Assembly: GCF_000807675.2 (NCBI RefSeq)
Contig: NZ_CP019962.1
Span: 1,984,001 to 2,048,000, forward strand
Direction: 5' to 3'
Origin: Eubacterium limosum
Lineage (GTDB): Bacteria > Bacillota > Clostridia > Eubacteriales > Eubacteriaceae
DNA: 64,000 bases
Shown: positions 40,808-50,132 of the stretch, piece after piece
Numbering within the stretch: position 1 is the stretch's first letter
Layout of the letters: every line of letters begins with the position of its first letter
Position numbers and translations under genes: made by a program
The notes under the pieces: generated by a model
The model's database searches: none
Seen by the model: the letters and a program-made list of their open reading frames with translations, nothing else
What the model was told of the DNA's origin: nothing

Positions 40808-40840
40808 TGACACAACCTGTCAGGTTATATCTGATATAAT
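40808..40840 (+). promoter_or_regulatory. Promoter with TGACA-N5-TGTCA element, copy 1
   Basis: TGACACAACCTGTCA (40808-40822) is followed by 12 bases and TATAAT (40835-40840). The same element with the same 12-base spacing occurs at 49244-49276. No standard -35 is present at the correct distance, suggesting an activator. CTGTCAG-N-TATAAT recalls the RecA-independent damage promoter TTGTCRGTG-N8-TANNNT of actinobacteria (PafBC), with one extra base. Confidence 0.7.
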
Positions 40841-40867
40841 ATAGACAGAAAAAAAGAGGAGACATCA

Positions 40868-41752
40868 ATGGAAACAATACCGGCCAAAACACTGGTCACC
40901 AAGAATAAAAATACTGCCTGGTTCGGAACAGAATACAGCATGAATATTTACAGGGGCTGCTGCCACGGCTGCATTTACTGTGACAGCCGCAGCGAATGCT
41001 ACCAGAATACGGATTTTGACACGGTAAAGAAAAAGCAGGATGCCCTCAGGCTCATCGCCCGTGACCTTAAAAGTAAAAAGAAAAAAGGCGTGGTAGGTAC
41101 CGGCGCCATGAGCGATCCCTACAACCCTTTTGAGAGAAGGGAGTGCCTGACCAGGGAAGCGCTCAAGCTCATTGACCACTATGGCTTTGGCGTGGCCATC
41201 GCGACCAAAGGGAGCCTTGTCACACGGGATATTGATCTGCTGTCCTGTATCCAGAGCCATTCCCCGGTTATCTGTAAGGTTACAATCACAGCAGCGGACG
41301 ATGTGTTGAGCGGTATTGTCGAGCCTGGGGCGCCGCCAAGCAGCGAGCGGTTTGAGGCAGTGAAGGCCCTCTCAGACGCCGGTATCTATACCGGCATTTT
41401 GCTGATGCCGGTCCTTCCCTTTATTGAGGACAGCACAGAAAATATTCGGTCGATTGTGGAACAGGGGGAAAAGTGCGGCGCACGTTTTATTTATCCCGGT
41501 TTTGGCGTTACTCTGAGAGATGTCCAGAGAGACTATTATTTTAATCAGCTGGACCAGCATTTTCCCGGATTCCGGCAAAAGTATATGCGTCAATACGGCA
41601 ACGCCTACAGCTGCGGGGCTTCCAGAGCGCACGAACTTTACACGTTTTTAAAAACTAGCTGCGGTCAGGCGGGCCTCAGTTTCAGAATGAAGGATATTAT
41701 CAAAGACTACAAAGGCCGATATCAATGTGAACAACTGTCATTTCTGAGATGA
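40868..41752 (+). CDS. SPL-family radical SAM protein
   Basis: 294 residues, ATG after GAGGAG. The radical SAM cluster motif is C-x3-C-x2-C in RGCCHGCIYC near residue 36. The following VVGTGAMSDPYNPFERRECLTREALKLI and TKGSLVTRDIDLL are typical of proteins annotated as SPL (spore photoproduct lyase) family, which repair thymine photoproducts or have unknown substrates. It is shorter than true SplB. Its promoter element is shared with the Nei/Fpg-like gene at 49299, suggesting a common DNA-repair role. Confidence 0.85.
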   Translation: METIPAKTLVTKNKNTAWFGTEYSMNIYRGCCHGCIYCDSRSECYQNTDFDTVKKKQDALRLIARDLKSKKKKGVVGTGAMSDPYNPFERRECLTREALKLIDHYGFGVAIATKGSLVTRDIDLLSCIQSHSPVICKVTITAADDVLSGIVEPGAPPSSERFEAVKALSDAGIYTGILLMPVLPFIEDSTENIRSIVEQGEKCGARFIYPGFGVTLRDVQRDYYFNQLDQHFPGFRQKYMRQYGNAYSCGASRAHELYTFLKTSCGQAGLSFRMKDIIKDYKGRYQCEQLSFLR

Positions 41753-41753
41753 T

Positions 41754-42483
41754 ACGGCGTTTCGCAGCCGCTGATGCTGGCATTCGGTGTGGCACAGGAT
41801 GTTTTGGGCTATGCCATGACCTATACCCGTTCGCCATTCCATTGCTGATTTCGCCAACGGAACCAGCAATATCATAAATCAGATGGCAGCCCGCACAGTG
41901 CTCAATACCATCCGGGCCCCCTGTTGATGTTTGGCTTTGGCATGAGCATTGCAGGGGCATCCATTGCCACTACATTTTCACAGATGGTTTCCTGCGCCTG
42001 TGCGCTCTGGTATACAACCCGTTTTAGAAACATCCGGTTTAACCGTTCCGATTTCAAGCTTCGAGAGGACCTATAAGCTGGCGATTCTCAGCGCCTCAGT
42101 GGTCTTGGTGGTGTCATTTTTGTGCTTTCAAATTTTTCCAAGACAGATTATCAGCATTTTTGGAACAGGGAGCGGGGTCTACTTTGAATTTACAGAGCTT
42201 TATTTTCGGATCTTTATGTTTGACACGCTGGTCAACAGCGTCCAGCCTGTTACTGGAAACTTTTTTATCGCTATTGGTAAGCCGGCTAAAGGAATTTTTA
42301 TTTCAATGACACGACAGATCATTTTCCTTCTGCCGCTGATCCTTTTGCTTCGGCATTAACGGCAGCATGTATGCGGGACCGATCGCCGATTTCGCAGCCT
42401 TCGCGGTTGCCATGATCATGGTTTTGGGTGAAATGCGGCGCATGAAAAGAATGCGCGACTCTTTGGAAAACGCCATCGAATAA
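41754..42483 (+). pseudogene. Degenerate MATE efflux transporter gene
   Basis: MATE-like segments appear in successive frames: LMLAFGVAQDVLGYAM near 41775, LLMFGFGMSIAGASIATTFSQMVS near 41930-42000, then LSASVVLVVSFLCFQIFPRQIISIFG and YFRIFMFDTLVNSVQPVTGNFF (42095-42350), and finally SMYAGPIADFAAFAVAMIM to a stop at 42481-42483. Frameshifts and an internal stop break it, and the first ~90 residues are gone. Removal of the 5' part joined the fragment directly behind the radical SAM stop codon. It is nonfunctional. Confidence 0.85.
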
Positions 42484-42494
42484 CGCTGAACAAC

Positions 42495-42519
42495 GGCCTG
42501 AATTTTCAGGCCCTTTTTT
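42495..42519 (+). terminator. Terminator after the MATE remnant
   Basis: GGCCTGAA (42495-42502) pairs with TTCAGGCC (42505-42512), then C and six T. Confidence 0.8.
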
Positions 42520-42588
42520 ATTTTTTGTTCTTTTTTTCAGCAGAAGATGTTAGAATGAAAAGACAATCATGGACAAAAGAGGAGCAAA

Positions 42589-43287
42589 ATGAAAAATAGA
42601 ATTATAATCATTGACGATGATCCTAAGCTTTGCGCCCTGCTCGAAAAATGCGTCACCTGCGATGGATTTGAAGCGGTCTGCGCCGGCGACGGCCATGAAG
42701 GGCTTGAAAAGCTGGAGGAGGGCAGCCCGGTACTCGTGGTGCTGGATGTAATGATGCCTGGTCTGGACGGATTCGAGGTGCTCAGGAAAATCCGTGAAAC
42801 CAGCGCGGTGCCAGTATTGATGCTGACAGCCCGGGACGATAATATCGACAAGGTATACGGGCTCCGGCTCGGGGCTGATGATTATCTCACAAAGCCCTTC
42901 GATATTAACGAGTTCAGCGCCAGGGTTCATTCGTTGGTGAGACGCTATACGATTCTTAACGGCAGCGAGGCGGAAAACAGCCAGCGGCTGAGCTTTAAAA
43001 ATCTTGAAATCGACCCGGACAGGCGGCTGGTTACAGTTTGCGGCAAAGGGATTGAGCTCCAGACAAAGGAGTTTGATATTTTATATTATTTGGCTAAAAA
43101 CAAAGGGCGCGCCCTGACTAAAAAGCAGATCTATGAGGAGGTCTGGCAGGAAGAATACCTGTATGATGACAGCAATATCATGGCGCATATCAGCAAAATA
43201 CGCCGACTTATTGAACCGGATTCCAAAAAGCCGATCTATATCCAGACCATCAAGGGCGTAGGCTACCGTTTTAACGCGGAGGTGTGA
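42589..43287 (+). CDS. OmpR/PhoB-type response regulator
   Basis: 232 residues, ATG after GAGGAG. The receiver domain has IDDDPK (8-13), phosphoacceptor Asp in LVVLDVMMPGLDG and the ADDYLTKPFD lysine; the C-terminal winged helix carries LQTKEFDILYYLAKNKGRALTKKQI and the wing IQTIKGVGYRF. It pairs with the kinase encoded immediately downstream and should bind the three 11-base repeats at 44221-44249 to drive the BcrA-type ABC genes. Confidence 0.9.
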   Translation: MKNRIIIIDDDPKLCALLEKCVTCDGFEAVCAGDGHEGLEKLEEGSPVLVVLDVMMPGLDGFEVLRKIRETSAVPVLMLTARDDNIDKVYGLRLGADDYLTKPFDINEFSARVHSLVRRYTILNGSEAENSQRLSFKNLEIDPDRRLVTVCGKGIELQTKEFDILYYLAKNKGRALTKKQIYEEVWQEEYLYDDSNIMAHISKIRRLIEPDSKKPIYIQTIKGVGYRFNAEV

Positions 43288-43289
43288 TC

Positions 43290-44213
43290 ATGAAAGGATT
43301 GGAAATGCTGCTGACAGCGCTTTTGTTCCTTGTCGGCGGTGCGATTCTTGTTTTGGCAGGAAAACTCTATCAGGCACGCAAAAGCGTCCGGGATATGAAT
43401 GAAGCACTCGAAGATATCCGAAACGGCAATCTGAACCGCCGTATTCTGGCAGCTCCGGATAACATTTTGGCGCCCTTTTTTTATAAAATCAACGATATTA
43501 TGGAGGGCTATCGCGATACAATCGCGGAGCTCAATGAACGCGATCAGGCCAACAGACAGATGATGACCAGTCTTTCTCACGACGTCCGGACGCCGCTCAC
43601 CACCCTTATCGGCTATCTGGACGCTGTCCACAGTCATCTGGTTGAGGGCGGGGAGCGGGAGGCGTATATTGAGACAGCCCGTGAAAAGGCCCACAGTCTC
43701 CAGATGTATGTGGATGATCTTTTTGAATGGTTTAAGCTGAACTCCAACGAGCGGGTTCTGGAAATCGCTCCGGTGAATGTGACGGAAATGACCCAGACCG
43801 TTCTGAGTGACTGGCTTCCGGTTTTTGAGCAAAATAAAATTGATTATGCTTTTTTTATCCCGGAAAAGTGCATCACCGTCTCTCTGGATACAGCGGCTTA
43901 CAGAAGGATTTTAAATAATCTGATACAAAACGTGGTGAGCCACAGCAGCGCTTCTGCGATTTCTGTTGGCGTAGAGGAAAAGAAGGACTGTGTGGAGATA
44001 TGGGTAAAGGATAACGGAAGGGGGATACCGGCGAGGGAACTAGACCATATTTTTGATCGTCTTTATAAATGTGATCCTGCCAGAATGGGCAAGGGCAGCG
44101 GCCTTGGGCTCTCCATTGTGGAGCAGCTGGTCCGGCTGCAGAATGGCGGCATCCGTGTGACGAGCGAAGTGGGAAAGGGGACGAGCTTTCTTCTGGATTT
44201 TAAGCCGGTTTGA
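43290..44213 (+). CDS. Sensor histidine kinase
   Basis: 307 residues. The ATG at 43290 is preferred over an in-frame GTG six bases earlier because GGAGGTG is centred before it. One N-terminal membrane span (about 5-23), a HAMP-like linker (KLYQARKSVRDMNEALEDIRNG), the phosphoacceptor motif SLSHDVRTPLTTLIGYLDAV, and ATP-binding boxes NLIQNVVSHSS, DNGRGIP and GKGSGLGLSIVEQL. Extracellular sensing residues are lacking, so it probably senses inside the membrane or through the ABC transporter next to it, as in lantibiotic-immunity systems. Confidence 0.9.
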   Translation: MKGLEMLLTALLFLVGGAILVLAGKLYQARKSVRDMNEALEDIRNGNLNRRILAAPDNILAPFFYKINDIMEGYRDTIAELNERDQANRQMMTSLSHDVRTPLTTLIGYLDAVHSHLVEGGEREAYIETAREKAHSLQMYVDDLFEWFKLNSNERVLEIAPVNVTEMTQTVLSDWLPVFEQNKIDYAFFIPEKCITVSLDTAAYRRILNNLIQNVVSHSSASAISVGVEEKKDCVEIWVKDNGRGIPARELDHIFDRLYKCDPARMGKGSGLGLSIVEQLVRLQNGGIRVTSEVGKGTSFLLDFKPV

Positions 44214-44220
44214 TGAAAGA

Positions 44221-44273
44221 CAAGGTTAAAGCAAGGTTGAGGCAAGGTTGGGGCAGGACACAGGTGGTATCAT
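44221..44273 (+). promoter_or_regulatory. Three 11-bp-spaced CAAGGTT repeats and promoter of the ABC operon
   Basis: CAAGGTT occurs at 44221, 44232 and 44243, an exact 11-base period, with CAGG at 44254 as a possible fourth remnant. The third copy overlaps the expected -35; TATCAT (44268-44273) is the -10. Tandem sites on one DNA face, ending at the -35, are the usual class II site for OmpR-type regulators. Confidence 0.8.
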
Positions 44274-44302
44274 AGCAGTATCAACAGAGGAGGATCTGAA
44301 CT

Positions 44303-45226
44303 ATGAAGGAAAAATATGTTATCGCTACAAAAAATCTGACAAAGGTTTATGGCGATCAAGTCAGTGTTTCGTCTCTTGATCTGCATGTGCGCAGAGGAAA
44401 GATATATGGCCTGCTGGGCCGCAACGGCGCAGGAAAAACCACCACCATGCGAATGCTCCTGGGATTAACCGAGCCCACCCAGGGCGCTATCCGTATCTTT
44501 GGGAAAGACCCGATTAAGGACGGTAAAACCCTGTATCCCAGGATTGGAAACCTGATCGAGTCACCAGGCTTTTATCCCAACCTGACTGGAACAGAAAATT
44601 TGAACATTTTTGCCACGCTTCGTGGCATTCCGAGAAAGGATGCAGTCCGGGAATCCCTTGAGCTTGTGGGGCTTCCATACAAAGACAAAAAGCTCTTTTC
44701 CAAGTATTCGCTGGGTATGAAACAGCGCCTGGCCATTGCCCTGGCCGTCATGCACGACCCCGAGCTTTTAATTCTGGATGAGCCCATCAATGGCCTGGAC
44801 CCCATCGGTATCGCAGAGATCCGTGATCTGCTCAAAGCATTTGCGAAAAAGGGAAAAACCATCCTGGTATCCAGCCACATTCTTTCAGAAATTGAGCTTC
44901 TGGCCGACGATGTGGGCATTATTGATAACGGTGTGCTTTTGGAGGAAGAGAGTATGTCTGTGCTCAGGGATAAAAACCAGATGTATATCCGTTTTGTTTT
45001 GTCCGATACGGCTAAAGCGGCGCGTATTCTGGAAAAGGTCTTTAAAACCAATGATTTCAGTATTGACGACGGACAGACACTGCGGCTGTTCGATACGACC
45101 TTTAGGGTCGGCACACTGACAAAATGTTTCGTGGAGAATGAGCTGACGGTGGACGACGCCCACATCTGTGAAGATACCCTGGAGGATTATTTCAAAAAGG
45201 TCACAGGGGGTGTCGGCATTGCTTAA
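44303..45226 (+). CDS. BcrA-type ABC transporter ATP-binding protein
   Basis: 307 residues, ATG after GAGG. Walker A GRNGAGKTTT, signature SLGMKQRLAIALAV, Walker B LLILDEPINGLD and the H-loop VSSHILSE are all present, followed by the ~90-residue C-terminal extension typical of BcrA/lantibiotic-immunity ATPases. It should energise export or expulsion of a membrane-active peptide with the two permeases downstream. The first permease starts inside its last codons. Confidence 0.9.
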   Translation: MKEKYVIATKNLTKVYGDQVSVSSLDLHVRRGKIYGLLGRNGAGKTTTMRMLLGLTEPTQGAIRIFGKDPIKDGKTLYPRIGNLIESPGFYPNLTGTENLNIFATLRGIPRKDAVRESLELVGLPYKDKKLFSKYSLGMKQRLAIALAVMHDPELLILDEPINGLDPIGIAEIRDLLKAFAKKGKTILVSSHILSEIELLADDVGIIDNGVLLEEESMSVLRDKNQMYIRFVLSDTAKAARILEKVFKTNDFSIDDGQTLRLFDTTFRVGTLTKCFVENELTVDDAHICEDTLEDYFKKVTGGVGIA

Positions 45227-46013
45227 GCTTGTACACTGTGAGTTTTTAAAACTGAAGCGCAAAAAATTTGTGCTTTTTATCATGCTGGCGGCTTGTATCA
45301 TGCCCATTCCGCTCACGGCCATTGTCCTGAAAACCGGCATCGGACAGAGTGCGGGTCAGCTTATGCCGCCTGAAGAAATGTACGACGGCCTGTTCGGTAT
45401 GATTGTGGGCTTTGGAAATTTTATCTCTATGCCCTGCATTATTGGGATCGTGGCAGCCATGCTGTTTTACATGGAAAGGGATAACGACACACTAAAAAAT
45501 TTGCGGACCATTCCCCTCAGCAGTAATCAGATTATTGCGGCCAAGATCATTACATTGTTTATATTAGGCATTTTCTATTCCGTTGCGCTCATGGCCTCAT
45601 CCATGGTGGGTGGACTGATCGGCGGCGGCATCAATGGGGTGGGCTATAAGCTGTGGATCAGCATTATGACTGGTATTCTCCTGACTGCCGGAACCCTGCC
45701 AGTGGTCATTGCCATCGTCTTTTTCAATCGGAGCTATATTTTTTCGATTCTTCTGTCCCTGGTTTACTCGGTGGGGGGCTTTGGCGTGGCGAGTACCAGC
45801 TTTACCAGCGGTAATATCACCAATCCGCTGCTTACCATTCTGCCTGTCCCGCTTATCTGGCGCTGGCAGAATATGGCGATTCAGGGTGATGCGGCCGCGG
45901 AAGCCGTTAAAAAAACAGCCGTATCCCTGCCAATGGCGGCCGGGATTGTCGGGTTGATCGCGGCGCTGTCTATTGCTGGTATTTTGTTTATCTACAGTAA
46001 ACGTGAAAGCTGA
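45219..46013 (+). CDS. ABC-2 type permease, first subunit
   Basis: 264 residues from a TTG at 45219, which has AGGGGGTG six bases upstream and overlaps the ATPase stop. An ATG-initiated version 17 codons longer would lie inside the ATPase gene. Six membrane segments are predicted, beginning with LKRKKFVLFIMLAACIMPIPLTAIV, and ERDNDTLKNLRTIPLSSNQIIAAKIITLFI is the cytoplasmic coupling segment of lantibiotic-immunity permeases (BcrB/EpiE-like). It is homologous to the second permease. Confidence 0.85.
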   Translation: MLKLVHCEFLKLKRKKFVLFIMLAACIMPIPLTAIVLKTGIGQSAGQLMPPEEMYDGLFGMIVGFGNFISMPCIIGIVAAMLFYMERDNDTLKNLRTIPLSSNQIIAAKIITLFILGIFYSVALMASSMVGGLIGGGINGVGYKLWISIMTGILLTAGTLPVVIAIVFFNRSYIFSILLSLVYSVGGFGVASTSFTSGNITNPLLTILPVPLIWRWQNMAIQGDAAAEAVKKTAVSLPMAAGIVGLIAALSIAGILFIYSKRES

Positions 46014-46021
46014 GGTGCACT

Positions 46022-46108
46022 GTGAAAAAGTTAAAGTGGATTTTGAGTATTGCGGCGGTTTTTAAACTTATCTATATTACCAGCGGGAGGGAAAAGAAAA
46101 ATGCTTAA
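46022..46108 (+). CDS. Possible small hydrophobic protein between the two permeases
   Basis: A GTG-initiated ORF of 28 codons with GAGGTG a few bases upstream encodes VKKLKWILSIAAVFKLIY followed by a basic tail, one predicted membrane helix. It overlaps the start of the second permease by eight bases. It could be a real small membrane protein or just a coupling ORF; its hydrophobic profile is the only support. Confidence 0.3.
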   Translation: MKKLKWILSIAAVFKLIYITSGREKKNA

Positions 46109-46901
46109 ACTGATCAAGACAGAAATATTCAAGCTCAAGCGCTATTCCATTGTATGGGTGGCGGCAGCCGCCATGCTCTGCGGGCCGCTGCTGTCCTGGT
46201 TTACCATCTCCATGGATACCAGCGGCAGCTATACGTTCACGGAATTTTCGGACAATACGATCTGGACAAATTTTGACGCGGTCAATCCTCTGGTTTTTAC
46301 GCTGCTGGCAGGCTACATCATTTCAAGAGAGTGGACAGATGATACCCTTAAAAACCTGCTGACCATACCCGTCCCTTTCAGTAAGCTGCTGACCGCTAAG
46401 CTTTTGGTTATCACGGCTCTGGTGGCGCTGTCGGGAGTCGGCAGTTTCCTGGCAACCATACTGTTTGCTGGAATATCAGGGCTGGAAGGCTTTACAGCAA
46501 ATCTGGCAGTTCAGTCGCTTGTGCAGATGGTGGTCATGAACCTGTGCGTGTATATTGCGGTACTGCCCATCATTGTTTTTACCAGTAAAAAGCCGGGCGG
46601 CTTTGTCGCGGGGGTGGGGTTTGCTTTCTTTTACGGGGTCTGCGGCGGTCTGGTGGCAGGCCACGGACTTGGAAATGTGTATCCGCTCACGGCTGGCTTT
46701 GCCCTTATCAATTACAGAATTGATCCAGGTGCTTTTTCAGAAGGCTTTACCTATAACTTGCCCCAATGCTGTACGGTGCTGGCGCTGACACTGCTTTTAT
46801 CCATTGTGATGGTGCTGAGAACCGATAAGCATGTGCAGAAAAACAGTCATTGGCAGAGGGCGGCGGTTGCGGCAGCCGGTTCAAAAAGTAAAAAGAGATG
46901 A
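46101..46901 (+). CDS. ABC-2 type permease, second subunit
   Basis: 266 residues from the ATG at 46101 (MLKLIKTEIF), which follows GGGAGGG. It parallels the first permease: LKLIKTEIFKLKRYSIVWVAAAAMLCGP at the start, SREWTDDTLKNLLTIPVPFSKLLTAKLLV as coupling segment, and six hydrophobic spans. ATPase and two such permeases form a complete lantibiotic- or bacitracin-type exporter, regulated by the upstream two-component system. The terminator overlaps the stop codon. Confidence 0.85.
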   Translation: MLKLIKTEIFKLKRYSIVWVAAAAMLCGPLLSWFTISMDTSGSYTFTEFSDNTIWTNFDAVNPLVFTLLAGYIISREWTDDTLKNLLTIPVPFSKLLTAKLLVITALVALSGVGSFLATILFAGISGLEGFTANLAVQSLVQMVVMNLCVYIAVLPIIVFTSKKPGGFVAGVGFAFFYGVCGGLVAGHGLGNVYPLTAGFALINYRIDPGAFSEGFTYNLPQCCTVLALTLLLSIVMVLRTDKHVQKNSHWQRAAVAAAGSKSKKR

Positions 46902-46929
46902 TACGGCGTTTTGCCGAATCATCTCTTTT
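46891..46929. terminator. Bidirectional terminator, GATGAT-CGGC hairpin family
   Basis: AAAAGAGATGAT (46891-46902) pairs with ATCATCTCTTTT (46918-46929), with an inner CGGC/GCCG. The same sequence type recurs at 7827, 27584, 59656 and elsewhere. Confidence 0.85.
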
Positions 46930-46930
46930 A

Positions 46931-47425
46931 TTATTTTCTGGTGATCTTTGTGCGGGACAGATTTTCACGAATGGTGCTGCGGGTTATTTCAAACTGCTCT
47001 TTTGGCAGAATATCCTCGATATAGGGGAGAGAAGGAGCATAAATAAAGGAGCCGCCCTTTTTAAGCGCTGTCAGAATAGATTTATAGCACTTTACCCATT
47101 CCAGGTCACTGCCGTCCTGTGCGGACATGGCAGCAGACATTTCTTTAATAAAGGCCAGGGGGGAGAGAATACTGCCCCAGTAGTCCTTACCGTAATCGAC
47201 GTGTAAAAAATCGGATGCGCGCGTAACATCTGTATCTTCGGCGCTGGGGTCAATGCCGCAGGCGCGGTGGCCCTGTGCGTTTAAAAAGAAAACGAGATTA
47301 CCTGTAGCGCCGGAGCCCACAACTAAAATGGGGTCTTCCAGCTTATCCATATCTAAATCCAGGAGTTCAATCTGAAAGCCCGCGGAGTATTCAGAGTTCA
47401 AATTAATGGTATTGTTGTTATCCAT
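46931..47425 (-). CDS. Small SAM-dependent methyltransferase-like protein
   Basis: 164 residues; the start at 47425 has AAGGAAAG upstream. ILVVGSGATGNLVFFLNAQGH followed by GIDPS matches the glycine-rich SAM-binding loop and acidic strand 2 of class I methyltransferases, but the protein is short and the C-terminal half is not recognisable beyond a further Rossmann-like strand (ALKKGGSFIYAPS). It could be a methyltransferase or an enzymatically inactive relative. No partner is visible. Confidence 0.55.
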   Translation of the reverse strand: MDNNNTINLNSEYSAGFQIELLDLDMDKLEDPILVVGSGATGNLVFFLNAQGHRACGIDPSAEDTDVTRASDFLHVDYGKDYWGSILSPLAFIKEMSAAMSAQDGSDLEWVKCYKSILTALKKGGSFIYAPSLPYIEDILPKEQFEITRSTIRENLSRTKITRK

Positions 47426-47572
47426 GATCTTTCCTTTCTGAAATTGATGATGCAAAACTTATACCCATTATAACGAATTTAGGACGGAATGCCCAGATAA
47501 AAATTAAATTTACCATTTGCGGTACAATTGGTGTATAATAGAGCCATTATCGAAAAAATAAAAGGAAGCAAA

Positions 47573-48079
47573 ATGAAAACATTATTTGAAAACACAACCA
47601 TTTACGGCAAAAAAATTTATCTTGAGGCACAGGGAAAATGGTATCAGAAAAACGCTCTGAAAAAACGCTGGTTCTATTTACTCATGGCTGCTTTTTGTTT
47701 TGTTTGCGCCTACTATTATCTGTCGAGAGCGTCATGGCCGGCAGGCGTGATATTTATAGTGATGGGAATACTGCTGGTGCTTGTCTATTTTCAGGGATAC
47801 CGCTTTTCGGCAGAGAGAGCCTACAATGAGCAAAAAGATATTTTTCCGGCCAGTGGCTTTAAATGGACTATCACCAAGGATAAGATGGTTTGGAAAACGG
47901 CTGAGGCAGAGCGGCCTGTTTTTTACAAACAGATTGAAAAAATCTATGAAACAGGGCATACCTTCGTGATCGTGGCTGGCGGAAAAATGCATATTCTTGA
48001 TAAGGATGGCTTTACGGCCGGCGGTGCAGCTGATTTCAAAAGCTTTTTAATGAAAAAATGCCCTCAGGCTTTTAAATAA
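47573..48079 (+). CDS. YcxB-like membrane protein
   Basis: 168 residues, ATG at 47573 after AAAGGAAG; TATAAT at 47534-47539 is its -10. Two adjacent membrane spans (about 32-50 and 56-73) precede a C-terminal domain of the YcxB type (GFKWTITKDKMVW, then FYKQIEKIYETGHTFVIVAGGKMHILDKDGF). Such proteins are common in Firmicutes; function unknown. Confidence 0.7.
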   Translation: MKTLFENTTIYGKKIYLEAQGKWYQKNALKKRWFYLLMAAFCFVCAYYYLSRASWPAGVIFIVMGILLVLVYFQGYRFSAERAYNEQKDIFPASGFKWTITKDKMVWKTAEAERPVFYKQIEKIYETGHTFVIVAGGKMHILDKDGFTAGGAADFKSFLMKKCPQAFK

Positions 48080-48144
48080 AGCTTGACCTTTACGCGGCGT
48101 TATCCCTTAAACTGTGATTAAGACACGAGAGGAGATGACGTTTT

Positions 48145-49056
48145 ATGAAAATCAATGCCATTTATTCTGGCAAAATTTATGAAAAGATGATGAACGCTTC
48201 TGCTGGAAAAAGAGATGACCTTTACCGTTATGAGATGATGAAGCCTTTTGAGTACAAGTGGGCATGTATCAATGTGCCGATTAAGGCTGCCCGGAAAGGC
48301 GGCTACGATGTGGTGATGGCCTCTGAAATGATGGGGCTTTTCCCACCAGAAAGGGTGGATCATTCACAGAAAGAAGCGGTGGAGTGGCTTAAAAAAGAAA
48401 GTCTTTGGTCTGCCAGCGAGGCGGCTATAAAGAAATCTTTGGATTGTTTTGTAAAGGCGGGTATCGAACTGCCGGTTCAGGAATACTTTTTTACCCTTCT
48501 TCTGGCCAATCCGGATAATCCATATACACAGATGAGTGAGGGTTACTGCGGGGACGGCGGCATTCCAGGCTATATTTTGGGCTCACTGGTGCCGAGTGAA
48601 GCGACGGTCGCCAGGATGCCTGCGGCCCTGGCCCATGAGTGCAATCATAATGTGCGGTTTCAATTCCAGAAATGGCGGACGGATATTACGCTGGCCGAAA
48701 TGATGGTAAGTGAGGGGCTGGCCGAAAATTTTGCCGCGGCTCTCTACGGGGAGAAAGCCGTTGGTCCGTGGGTAACTAAAACAGATGCGTCAGTTTTGGA
48801 AGCGGTTATAAAACCAAGGATTGTTGAAGTTTTTGATGTAACCGGCTTTGATGGCATCACGCCCTGGCTCTACGGCGACGAGATAGCAGAGATACAGCAT
48901 TTCTTCCCGGTGGGGATGCCTTATTGCGCAGGGTATGCCTGCGGTTATCATATGATCCGCCATTATCTCAAAAAAACAGGCGTCCCTATTGTGGAAGCAA
49001 CCCTGAAACCAGCCGCTGAGATTATGGCAGAATGTTCGGATTTTTGGGGGCATTGA
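48145..49056 (+). CDS. DUF2268 putative zinc metalloprotease
   Basis: 303 residues, ATG after GAGGAG. The zinc-binding motif HECNH (within ALAHECNHNVRF) has the HExxH pattern, and the MVSEGLAENFAAALYG segment ~30 residues later supplies the third zinc ligand (Glu), as in DUF2268 and related gluzincins. No signal peptide. Family members have been described as predicted Zn-dependent proteases; substrates unknown. Monocistronic, ending at a terminator. Confidence 0.85.
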   Translation: MKINAIYSGKIYEKMMNASAGKRDDLYRYEMMKPFEYKWACINVPIKAARKGGYDVVMASEMMGLFPPERVDHSQKEAVEWLKKESLWSASEAAIKKSLDCFVKAGIELPVQEYFFTLLLANPDNPYTQMSEGYCGDGGIPGYILGSLVPSEATVARMPAALAHECNHNVRFQFQKWRTDITLAEMMVSEGLAENFAAALYGEKAVGPWVTKTDASVLEAVIKPRIVEVFDVTGFDGITPWLYGDEIAEIQHFFPVGMPYCAGYACGYHMIRHYLKKTGVPIVEATLKPAAEIMAECSDFWGH

Positions 49057-49108
49057 CAGGGAAGCCTGGCCTTTCTATGATAAAAGCAGAAAAATAAGAG
49101 TGATGTAA

Positions 49109-49140
49109 GGCCGTGGACATTATCTGTCCGCGGTCTTTTT
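49109..49140 (+). terminator. Rho-independent terminator after the protease gene
   Basis: GGCCG-T-GGACA (49109-49119) pairs with TGTCC-G-CGGTC (49125-49135), with one G-T pair, followed by TTTTT. Confidence 0.8.
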
Positions 49141-49213
49141 AATGGTTTAAAACAGAGTCCGGGGATGAGAGATGCTCTGCCGCCGTTAATTTCATCGGCT
49201 TTGGGCATTGTTT

Positions 49214-49276
49214 ACTGCAAAAAAGGCAAATTGCAGTGAAATATGACAAAACCTGTCAGTGTTTATAGGGTATAAT
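49214..49276 (+). promoter_or_regulatory. Promoter with TGACA-N5-TGTCA element, copy 2
   Basis: TGACAAAACCTGTCA (49244-49258), 12 bases, TATAAT (49271-49276), nearly identical to 40808-40840 in sequence and spacing. An extra inverted repeat, ACTGCAA (49214-49220)/TTGCAGT (49231-49237), lies just upstream and is specific to this copy. Confidence 0.7.
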
Positions 49277-49298: not shown

Positions 49299-50132
49299 AT
49301 GCTGGAATTACCAGAAAGCTATACCATAGCTGGACAATTAGACGAGATCGTTAAAGGAAAACAGATTGAGCAGGTGGTTGCGGGAGCATCACTACATAAA
49401 TTTGCCTTTTTTAATGGCGAGCCGGAAGCCTGCCGCGAGATACTTCTGGGGATGAGAGTAGACAGGGCCACGTCGTACGGCGGCTATGTTGAAATTGAAT
49501 TTGGGGATAAGCGGCTTTTGCTGGGGGACGGTGTCAATATACGCTATCTGGAGGCAAAGGAAAAAAAGCCTAAGAAGCATCAGTTGCTGCTGACCTTTGA
49601 GGATGAGAGCGCCCTGGTCTTTTCAGTGGCGATGTACGGGGCAATCTGGGCATATGCAGAGGGAGAAAATGACAATTATTATCATCGGGTTGCCAGAGAA
49701 AAGCCATCGCCCCTAAGCGGAGAATTTGACCGGGAATGGTTTGATGGCATTGTGGCTGCGGCTAAGAAGAATACCAGCGCAAAGGCTCTTCTGGCGACGG
49801 AACAGCGGATTCCAGGCCTGGGCAATGGCTGCCTGCAGGATATTCTTTTTAACGCTCGAGTGAACCCCAGAACAAAGCTGGAATATCTGACGGAGGAAGA
49901 GCTCAGCCGCCTGTTTGATTCCGTTAAGGGTACCCTGCATCAGATGACTGTAAAAGGAGGCCGGGATACCGAGAAAGATATTTTTGGCATGAAGGGCGGC
50001 TATAAAAGCATTTTATCCAAAAATACTTATAAAACGCCCTGTCCGGTCTGCGGTGGTGCCATTATCAAGGAAGCCTATCTGGGCGGCAGTGTTTATTATT
50101 GTCCAAACTGCCAGCCCAATAAAAAAGATTAA
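49299..50132 (+). CDS. Fpg/Nei-family DNA glycosylase-like protein with altered position 2
   Basis: 277 residues, ATG after GAGGAGG. The full fold is there: N-terminal beta sandwich, helix-two-turn-helix (ATEQRIPGLGNGCLQDILFNARVNP) and a C-terminal four-cysteine zinc finger (PCPVCGG and YYCPNCQ). It begins MLELPE where Fpg/Nei enzymes have MPELPE: the nucleophilic Pro2 is Leu, while Glu3, Pro5 and Glu6 are kept. Loss of Pro2 should remove the Schiff-base lyase chemistry, so it may be a lesion-binding or mono-functional protein. A Firmicute subfamily shares this start. The 3' end abuts the transglutaminase remnant. Confidence 0.85.
   Translation: MLELPESYTIAGQLDEIVKGKQIEQVVAGASLHKFAFFNGEPEACREILLGMRVDRATSYGGYVEIEFGDKRLLLGDGVNIRYLEAKEKKPKKHQLLLTFEDESALVFSVAMYGAIWAYAEGENDNYYHRVAREKPSPLSGEFDREWFDGIVAAAKKNTSAKALLATEQRIPGLGNGCLQDILFNARVNPRTKLEYLTEEELSRLFDSVKGTLHQMTVKGGRDTEKDIFGMKGGYKSILSKNTYKTPCPVCGGAIIKEAYLGGSVYYCPNCQPNKKD

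Follow-up and report, generated by a model that had tools for sequence, protein, structure and literature searches.

In Bacillota, the control of DNA damage is normally discussed in terms of LexA and the SOS response. The WYL activators of damage genes in the papers drawn on here come from Caulobacter and from actinobacteria (PMC12340889, PMC10693628, PMC11804915, PMC8223512). In Caulobacter crescentus, the WYL activator DriD recognizes the palindrome ATACGAC-N7-GTCGTAT, which overlaps the -35 region and stands at a fixed distance from the -10 hexamer (PMC12340889); SiwR of Mycobacterium smegmatis is a homodimeric WYL activator connected with genotoxic stress that acts on a palindrome in the adjacent operon's promoter, where the -26 region, with a conserved GGA, is essential (PMC10693628); and PafBC is a heterodimer that touches a -26 motif with one helix-turn-helix (HTH) (PMC11804915) and for which no binding to promoter DNA was seen unless RNA polymerase was present (PMC11804915, PMC8223512). 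The present analysis concerns a stretch of 64,000 nucleotides of the Eubacterium limosum genome (positions 1984001-2048000 of a single 4.42-Mb contig; hereafter the window), in which the genes for an SPL-family radical SAM protein and for an Fpg/Nei-like protein are preceded by the same element, TGACA-N5-TGTCA followed after 12 bases by TATAAT. The shared element is a real regulatory element for which a candidate regulator has been identified, the WYL-domain protein P0001, and it probably serves as the operator and activation site of P0001 acting as a homodimeric transcription factor. The PafBC promoter, to which the initial annotation had likened the element, reads TTGTCRGTG-N8-TANNNT.

The two promoters and their genes are laid out as follows.

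40808..40822, plus strand: exact dyad TGACA-N5-TGTCA, putative operator before the SPL-family radical SAM gene, kept in 4 of 4 congeneric SPL promoters
40832..40840, plus strand: extended -10, TGA then TATAAT (hexamer 40835-40840), 12 bases past the dyad
40868..41752, plus strand: SPL-family radical SAM protein, 294 amino acids (PF04055, 5.2e-11)
49244..49258, plus strand: exact dyad TGACA-N5-TGTCA, putative operator before the Fpg/Nei-like gene, kept in 4 of 4 congeneric promoters
49271..49276, plus strand: -10 hexamer TATAAT, 12 bases past the dyad, G at -14
49299..50132, plus strand: Fpg/Nei-like glycosylase-family protein, 277 amino acids, starting M-L-E-L-P-E

Read directly, both copies are exact over 40808-40840 and 49244-49276, as the initial annotation had it: TGACACAACCTGTCA (40808-40822) leads after 12 bases to TATAAT at 40835-40840, and TGACAAAACCTGTCA (49244-49258) after 12 bases to TATAAT at 49271-49276. 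No other exact TGACA-N5-TGTCA dyad occurs in the window; with one mismatch allowed the count is five, against a mean of 1.57 in shuffled sequence, where five was reached in 1 of 100 shuffles. When the promoters of both genes are aligned over the congeneric genomes G000-G003, AAATATGACA..AC.TGTCAG..T.T.T..G.TATAATA is invariant in all eight, and the flanks outside it are unlike between the SPL and the Fpg-like promoters, so that the two upstream regions do differ otherwise, although identity reaches further than had been noted. It is also correct that neither window promoter has a -35 hexamer at normal spacing, since a 17-base spacer would give ACAACC and AAAACC. A G stands at -14 in both, and the SPL promoter has the full TGN of an extended -10. 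Setting the -10 hexamer at -12 to -7 places one half-site at -39 to -35 and the other at -29 to -25, around a centre near -32, the SPL-promoter dyad covering about -39 to -25 relative to its presumed start site. The fixed distance from dyad to -10, the missing -35 and the extended -10 support the expectation of an activator-like promoter.

A WYL-family regulator encoded outside the window had likewise been anticipated, and such a gene was found next to another copy of the element:

G000:C1:1867293-1868189, minus strand: P0001, HTH_11-WYL-WCX protein, 299 amino acids, about 116 kb before the window

P0001 unites a winged helix-turn-helix (wHTH), a WYL and a WCX domain in one protein (PF08279 (HTH_11), 9.8e-14; PF13280 (WYL), 1.7e-23; PF25583 (WCX), 1.7e-07) and shows a weaker match to the PafC HTH. 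A Cass2/GyrI-like gene lies directly behind it on the same strand, and the dyad between the two genes begins within the P0001 stop codon. Compared by phmmer with PDB sequences, P0001 comes closest to PafC (5.8e-18), and the same search gives PafBC, CapW, BrxR and one unnamed WYL protein; DriD is not among its matches at 1e-3 and was found by fold search only, Foldseek with a medium-quality AlphaFold model of P0001 placing PafBC (5.1e-18) and DriD (8.4e-14) on top. The ssDNA-sensing WYL activators PafBC, DriD and SiwR have conserved basic residues after the WYL motif that bind ssDNA. In the P0001 alignment R/K181, R185 and R191 around this motif are present in all 15 of 15 proteins and may correspond to PafB R204/R208, as judged by distance to the WYL tyrosine and placed by hand. 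Two WYL loci were found in the genome with PF13280, about 355 kb apart, and P0001 is the only uninterrupted one: the second WYL gene (L212 1090-2022; genome about 2223214-2224146) is broken by an in-frame TGA, and the stretch that separates it from a divergent gene, DJ-1/PfpI-like by eye, holds a one-mismatch dyad.

Among the described systems, DriD offers the closest structural match to the operator. The arrangement ATATGAC-N7/8-GTCATAT found here stands beside the ATACGAC-N7-GTCGTAT of DriD (PMC12340889), with GAC-N7-GTC (gap 5) or its gap-6 form lying over the -35 region at a fixed distance from the -10; the poor -35, the G at -14, the dispersed target genes and a WYL-WCX protein with a wHTH are further points in common (PMC12340889). 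The two systems differ in that DriD is not a close sequence relative of P0001, in that T replaces C in the half-sites and a gap of either 5 or 6 is tolerated, in that the regulator is here often beside its target, and in the genes served, which for DriD include didA, bapE, recJ and dnaG and are here detoxification-like and SPL/Fpg-like. SiwR may resemble the present case in its adjacent DinB-superfamily targets, the superfamily to which DUF1706/ClbS is assigned, but it is described for one adjacent operon in actinobacteria, whereas we are dealing with a dispersed set in Bacillota made up mostly of GyrI-like and DUF1706 genes (PMC10693628). What PafBC has in common is the WYL family and an element near -26 without use of the -35 (PMC11804915, PMC8223512); in contrast, a single gene rather than two adjacent WYL genes is found here, the operator is a full palindrome, 12 bases rather than 11 follow TGTCA in the window sites (the 11-base spacing recurs in 17 of the 88 sites of the wider set described below), and the gene set is another. 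The proposed likeness to PafBC is borne out for the family, through P0001, and fails for the operator, PafBC being a heterodimer on one -26 motif. A near-DriD operator that overlaps the -35 and keeps a constant spacing to an extended -10 therefore suggests a homodimeric WYL activator over a heterodimeric one of the PafBC kind.

The whole-genome scan that the initial annotation had called for gave eight matches to TGACA-N5-TGTCA-N11..13-TANNNT over the 4.42 Mb, against none for the reversed pattern. Four are clean N12 promoters, namely those of the SPL gene, of the Fpg-like gene, of a Zn_ribbon_2 gene (869970) and of the Cass2/GyrI-like gene behind P0001 (1867260, minus strand). Three others were not counted as regulon members, each being probably a chance match, a conventional promoter or a palindrome read from its opposite strand: 2915607, an ordinary promoter with TTGACA and a 17-base spacer; 1168041; and 869952, which is the Zn-ribbon dyad seen from its opposite strand. 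The match at 2357849 (N11), before a GNAT-YoaP gene, is ambiguous because its dyad doubles as a terminator-like hairpin, one that has a run of T and a second copy 1.2 kb away; GNAT-YoaP homologues in L126 and L181 have canonical sites. The hairpin itself, AAAAACCTGACAGACATTGTCAGGTTTTTTT, occurs at about 2356660 and 2357849 of the genome (L007 312 and 1501), the second copy standing directly before TATAAT and the GNAT-YoaP gene, and this dyad/-10 arrangement is found in all four of G000-G003. A scan with three mismatches returned 74 matches against 39 for reversed controls and was too noisy to extend the set beyond the four clean sites.

Element and regulator are also linked by loci fetched with the WYL protein alone, for which a collection was searched with the WYL alignment and the best 80 of at least 592 relatives were taken (758,548 bases). 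Their hosts are, by title, mostly Clostridia, with Bacillus, Paenibacillus, a Treponema and an Endomicrobium besides, a range that disposes of the idea of a system special to acetogens. In these loci TGACA-Ng-TGTCA occurs 33 times at a gap of 5 and 51 times at a gap of 6, and 0-3 times at any other gap between 0 and 20, the control TGTCA-Ng-TGACA giving 0-4 per gap and once 9. A TATAAT-like hexamer follows the dyad at 12 bases in 55 cases, at 11 in 14 and at 17 in 10, the remaining distances giving at most 8, apart from the counts of 24 and 22 at distances 0 and 5, which we ascribe to the A/T-rich half-site itself. Dyads with TANNNT at 11-12 bases number 86, against 0-1 in each of 20 first-order resamples. 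Widened to 11-13 bases, the set holds 88 sites in 59 of the 80 loci, six of them repeat counts of a dyad from its opposite strand, with spacings of 12 (69 sites), 11 (17) and 13 bases (2). The extended consensus approximates A-A-Y-A-TGACA-N5/6-TGTCA-N-N-T-T, and T and G each reach 62% at the extended -10 positions of the 69 N12 sites. Downstream of the 88 sites lies the WYL gene itself (31), a Cass2/GyrI-like (19), DUF1706 (11) or lin2189-type GyrI-like gene (11), a Zn-ribbon (3), SPL (2) or GNAT-YoaP gene (1), another gene (5) or no reading frame that could be found (5). Dyad promoters were also observed before a short-chain dehydrogenase (SDR, by Pfam; L109 3088) and before a gene that looks nitroreductase-like by eye (L118 6858), both of them possible further detoxification members.

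Genes like P0001 at E <= 1e-40 are present in 25 of 61 related genomes, and loci were obtained for 30 of the matches, with L061-L084 (E <= 3.2e-49) taken as the orthologue group, L085-L090 as more distant, and scans made on the WYL strand. Of the 24 closest loci, 16 contain an exact dyad of gap 5 or 6 followed by TANNNT at 11-12 bases, and 19 have dyad and -10 with at most one mismatch, against 0 of the 6 more distant loci with an exact dyad and -10. The loci read of genus g3 have the order WYL, dyad, GyrI-like gene, and a DUF1706 gene follows the dyad in G045. P0001 (88-97%) is retained in three congeneric genomes, as are the SPL, Fpg-like and Zn-ribbon sites; in a fourth congener, G004 (80% complete), no WYL, SPL or Fpg-like gene and no motif were found.

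Over 291 genomes of the class, the strict pattern TGACA-N5/6-TGTCA-N11/12-TATNNT matches 132 times in 83 genomes, against 36 times for the reversed control (hand count), and a close WYL orthologue, defined as a P0001 relative at 1e-50, is present in 35 genomes. The two coincide: the motif occurs in 23 of the 35 genomes with a close orthologue and in 60 of the 256 without one (odds ratio 6.3, Fisher p = 1.1e-6), and at 14 of 36 WYL loci a strict site lies no more than 50 bp away (hand count). Some of the matches without a close orthologue are background, as the 36 control matches indicate, and other orphan matches may fall to less closely related WYL proteins, for example the one, 32% identical, that is encoded downstream of the L210 site. 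From the 132 matches, 40 regions were picked for a good -10 or for distance from a WYL gene, and are not a random sample. Among them SPL homologues 40-56% identical carry the motif in four genomes, of which L185 and L187 have a close WYL relative and L199 and L208 none at 1e-50; lin2189-type targets occur in three regions and weakly in a fourth (L195), and Zn-ribbon, GNAT, Cass2, weak GyrI-like and WYL targets once each. The reference set leaves 25 of the 38 downstream proteins of these regions unlabelled, and Pfam on six of them gave nothing (L171), DUF3788 (L178), DUF3795 (L188), PNPOx-like (L192), GyrI-like (L196) and BtrH/DUF4872 (L201). A further GyrI-like subfamily of 152 amino acids was seen repeatedly with the dyad in genomes of other families (L196, L198, L200, L202, L209), L196 matching PF06445 at 3.4e-24 and the other four being alike by eye.

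These observations are consistent with a mechanism in which the two half-sites AATATGACA and TGTCATATT would flank the -35 region, the downstream one, at -29 to -25, occupying the place of the '-26' contact of PafBC and SiwR, and in which P0001 would hold RNA polymerase with its housekeeping sigma factor at the promoter, as DriD does. With no -35 hexamer and an extended -10 at these promoters, the polymerase would need P0001. What the WYL domain senses is probably DNA that is single-stranded or damaged, and the regulon would both destroy the agent, by means of GyrI-like, ClbS/DUF1706-like and perhaps SDR and GNAT enzymes according to lineage, and handle the lesions through the SPL radical SAM and Fpg-like proteins.

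Several facts weigh against P0001 as the activator bound at this operator. In the source genome its gene has no upstream dyad of its own, its AlphaFold model is of medium quality (pLDDT 71, pTM 0.34) and that model superposes on PafBC and DriD with low TM-scores (0.37-0.43 for the top full-length chains). No site was found in 21 of the 80 baited loci, 22 of the 36 WYL loci are without a strict site within 50 bp, 12 of the 35 genomes with a close orthologue have no strict site, and the strict match persists in the 60 genomes that lack one. Among the six distant loci, L090 has a one-mismatch site and L087 a dyad without a -10 just upstream of the WYL gene; three congeneric genomes have a gene other than GyrI-like behind P0001, and no site there. 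Outside the genus, the motif stands on none of 26 SPL homologues in the order (30 fetched of 32 found) and on none of three Fpg-like homologues, some of them in genomes that hold P0001 orthologues.

CapW and BrxR are WYL repressors of neighbouring phage-defence operons that act on inverted-repeat operators, and P0001 might in the same way repress from this dyad, which covers the -35 region, until a ligand or damage signal releases it. The overlap with the place of sigma-4 fits such a repressor, as do the appearance of CapW and BrxR behind PafBC (and, by fold, DriD) when P0001 is compared with solved structures and the 31 sites before the WYL gene itself, autoregulation being common for repressors. 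A repressor, however, needs no fixed distance to the -10, yet 11-12 bases are strongly preferred; the window promoters have no rightly placed -35 hexamer, and the -10 tends to the extended form, as in DriD promoters (PMC12340889). The kinship with CapW and BrxR is that of WYL regulators, and the labelled targets here are not defence genes, though many of the class-wide targets are unlabelled. We regard repression as unlikely. It would be more surprising still if some other DNA-binding protein, of MerR, GntR, AraC or unrecognised type, bound the dyad and the WYL gene were only its frequent neighbour or target. Many sites do lie far from any close WYL orthologue, as in the 60 of 256 genomes, and the second WYL gene of the source genome has its one-mismatch dyad just upstream; but that gene is interrupted, 19 of the 24 closest WYL loci have the site, and with the WYL protein as sole bait, and WYL the one regulator family sought in the loci, the gaps of 5 and 6 and the spacing of 12 stand out sharply. 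As for the dyads being terminators or chance inverted repeats before ordinary extended -10 promoters, the hairpin at 2357849 with its T run and second copy may be a case of the kind, but no T run accompanies the two window sites, which are conserved in four genomes, and for the set as a whole chance is very hard to credit because 86 sites face 0-1 in the resamples and the spacing is fixed. Activation by a P0001 homodimer remains the reading that we favour.

The targets deserve closer attention. For the SPL-family protein the nearest NCBIfam models are the Rv2578c and PA0069 families, both below their cut-offs (NF038135, 145.9 bits against 430). Between its gene and the next response regulator, at 41760-42360, short frames resemble by eye a decayed MATE-type transporter. 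In the Fpg-like protein of the window a leucine replaces the N-terminal catalytic proline of Fpg, and the start M-[LI]-E-[LI]-P-E is found in 7 of 7 Fpg-like proteins examined, this one included; the whole subfamily may be without the catalytic proline. The expectation that the motif would recur on orthologues was borne out in part, in the 4 of 4 congeneric genomes that have these genes and on six distant SPL homologues (two in WYL-baited loci, four in chosen regions), but not on the further homologues of either gene outside the genus (0/26 and 0/3), because of which the repair genes are not a fixed part of the regulon and SPL as a constant member throughout the order was rejected. The absence of the motif from these homologues argues therefore that repair genes would have joined the regulon separately in different lineages, with WYL and a GyrI-like or DUF1706 neighbour as its more stable core. 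Nor does a regulon devoted mainly to lesion repair, as first supposed, agree with the baited loci, where 41 of 52 sites before a non-WYL gene have GyrI-like or DUF1706 targets.

The GyrI-like targets of 205-218 amino acids match lin2189 (1.1e-26 for one). In lin2189, W85, E157/E185 and Y187 are pocket residues of a cyclopropanoid hydrolase (PMC5684135), and, with the lin2189 numbering transferred by hand from the alignment, W85, an aromatic residue at 154, E157, E185 and Y187 are kept in 13 of 15 lin2189-type targets, one being cut short and one divergent, a likeness to the cyclopropanoid cyclopropyl hydrolases lin2189 and YtkR7 (PMC5684135). The source genome differs in having a shorter GyrI-like protein of Cass2 type. 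To our knowledge, no hydrolysis or other reaction is known for a protein of that type. DUF1706 targets account for 11 of the 88 sites and are absent from the source genome; one matches PF08020 at 4e-53 and, at 3.2e-08, ClbS (6anr), which serves in self-protection from colibactin. Judged by family resemblance, the common theme of the lin2189-type, DUF1706/ClbS-like, SPL and Fpg-like targets appears to be defence against DNA-reactive chemicals.

WYL damage activators are already known as a kind, and what is new to the open-licence literature searched is the regulon, operator and host range found here. That literature gave no description of the three, and no link of WYL with GyrI-like proteins, of YobV with YobU or of Rv2578c with DNA damage; WYL with ClbS or colibactin led to SiwR as the relevant work, the others among the matches listed being unrelated by title, as were those for WYL with spore photoproduct lyase. 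Titles and opening lines of abstracts for WYL domain with Clostridium included none on such a system, and WYL domain with DNA damage and Clostridia returned Y-family polymerases only.

Across Clostridia, a single and easily scanned promoter code connects this WYL group with about seven families of target genes, and a shared label, genotoxin defence, is offered for the Cass2, DUF1706, Zn_ribbon_2, YoaP-type GNAT, SPL-like radical SAM and proline-less Fpg-like families. It is possible, although we advance it tentatively, that Clostridia possess a genotoxin response independent of RecA and LexA, run by WYL activators through a uniform DriD-like promoter code, in which one switch would couple the destruction of DNA-alkylating natural products, by lin2189/ClbS-type cyclopropane hydrolases, other GyrI-like binders, SDR and GNAT proteins, with repair, by the SPL radical SAM and the proline-less Fpg-like protein, and in which the list of targets would be reshuffled by lineage while operator and regulator stay. 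Some of the Clostridia with the code were, by title, sampled from gut or rumen and, if this proposal is true, gut anaerobes could use the response against the colibactin-type toxins of their neighbours.

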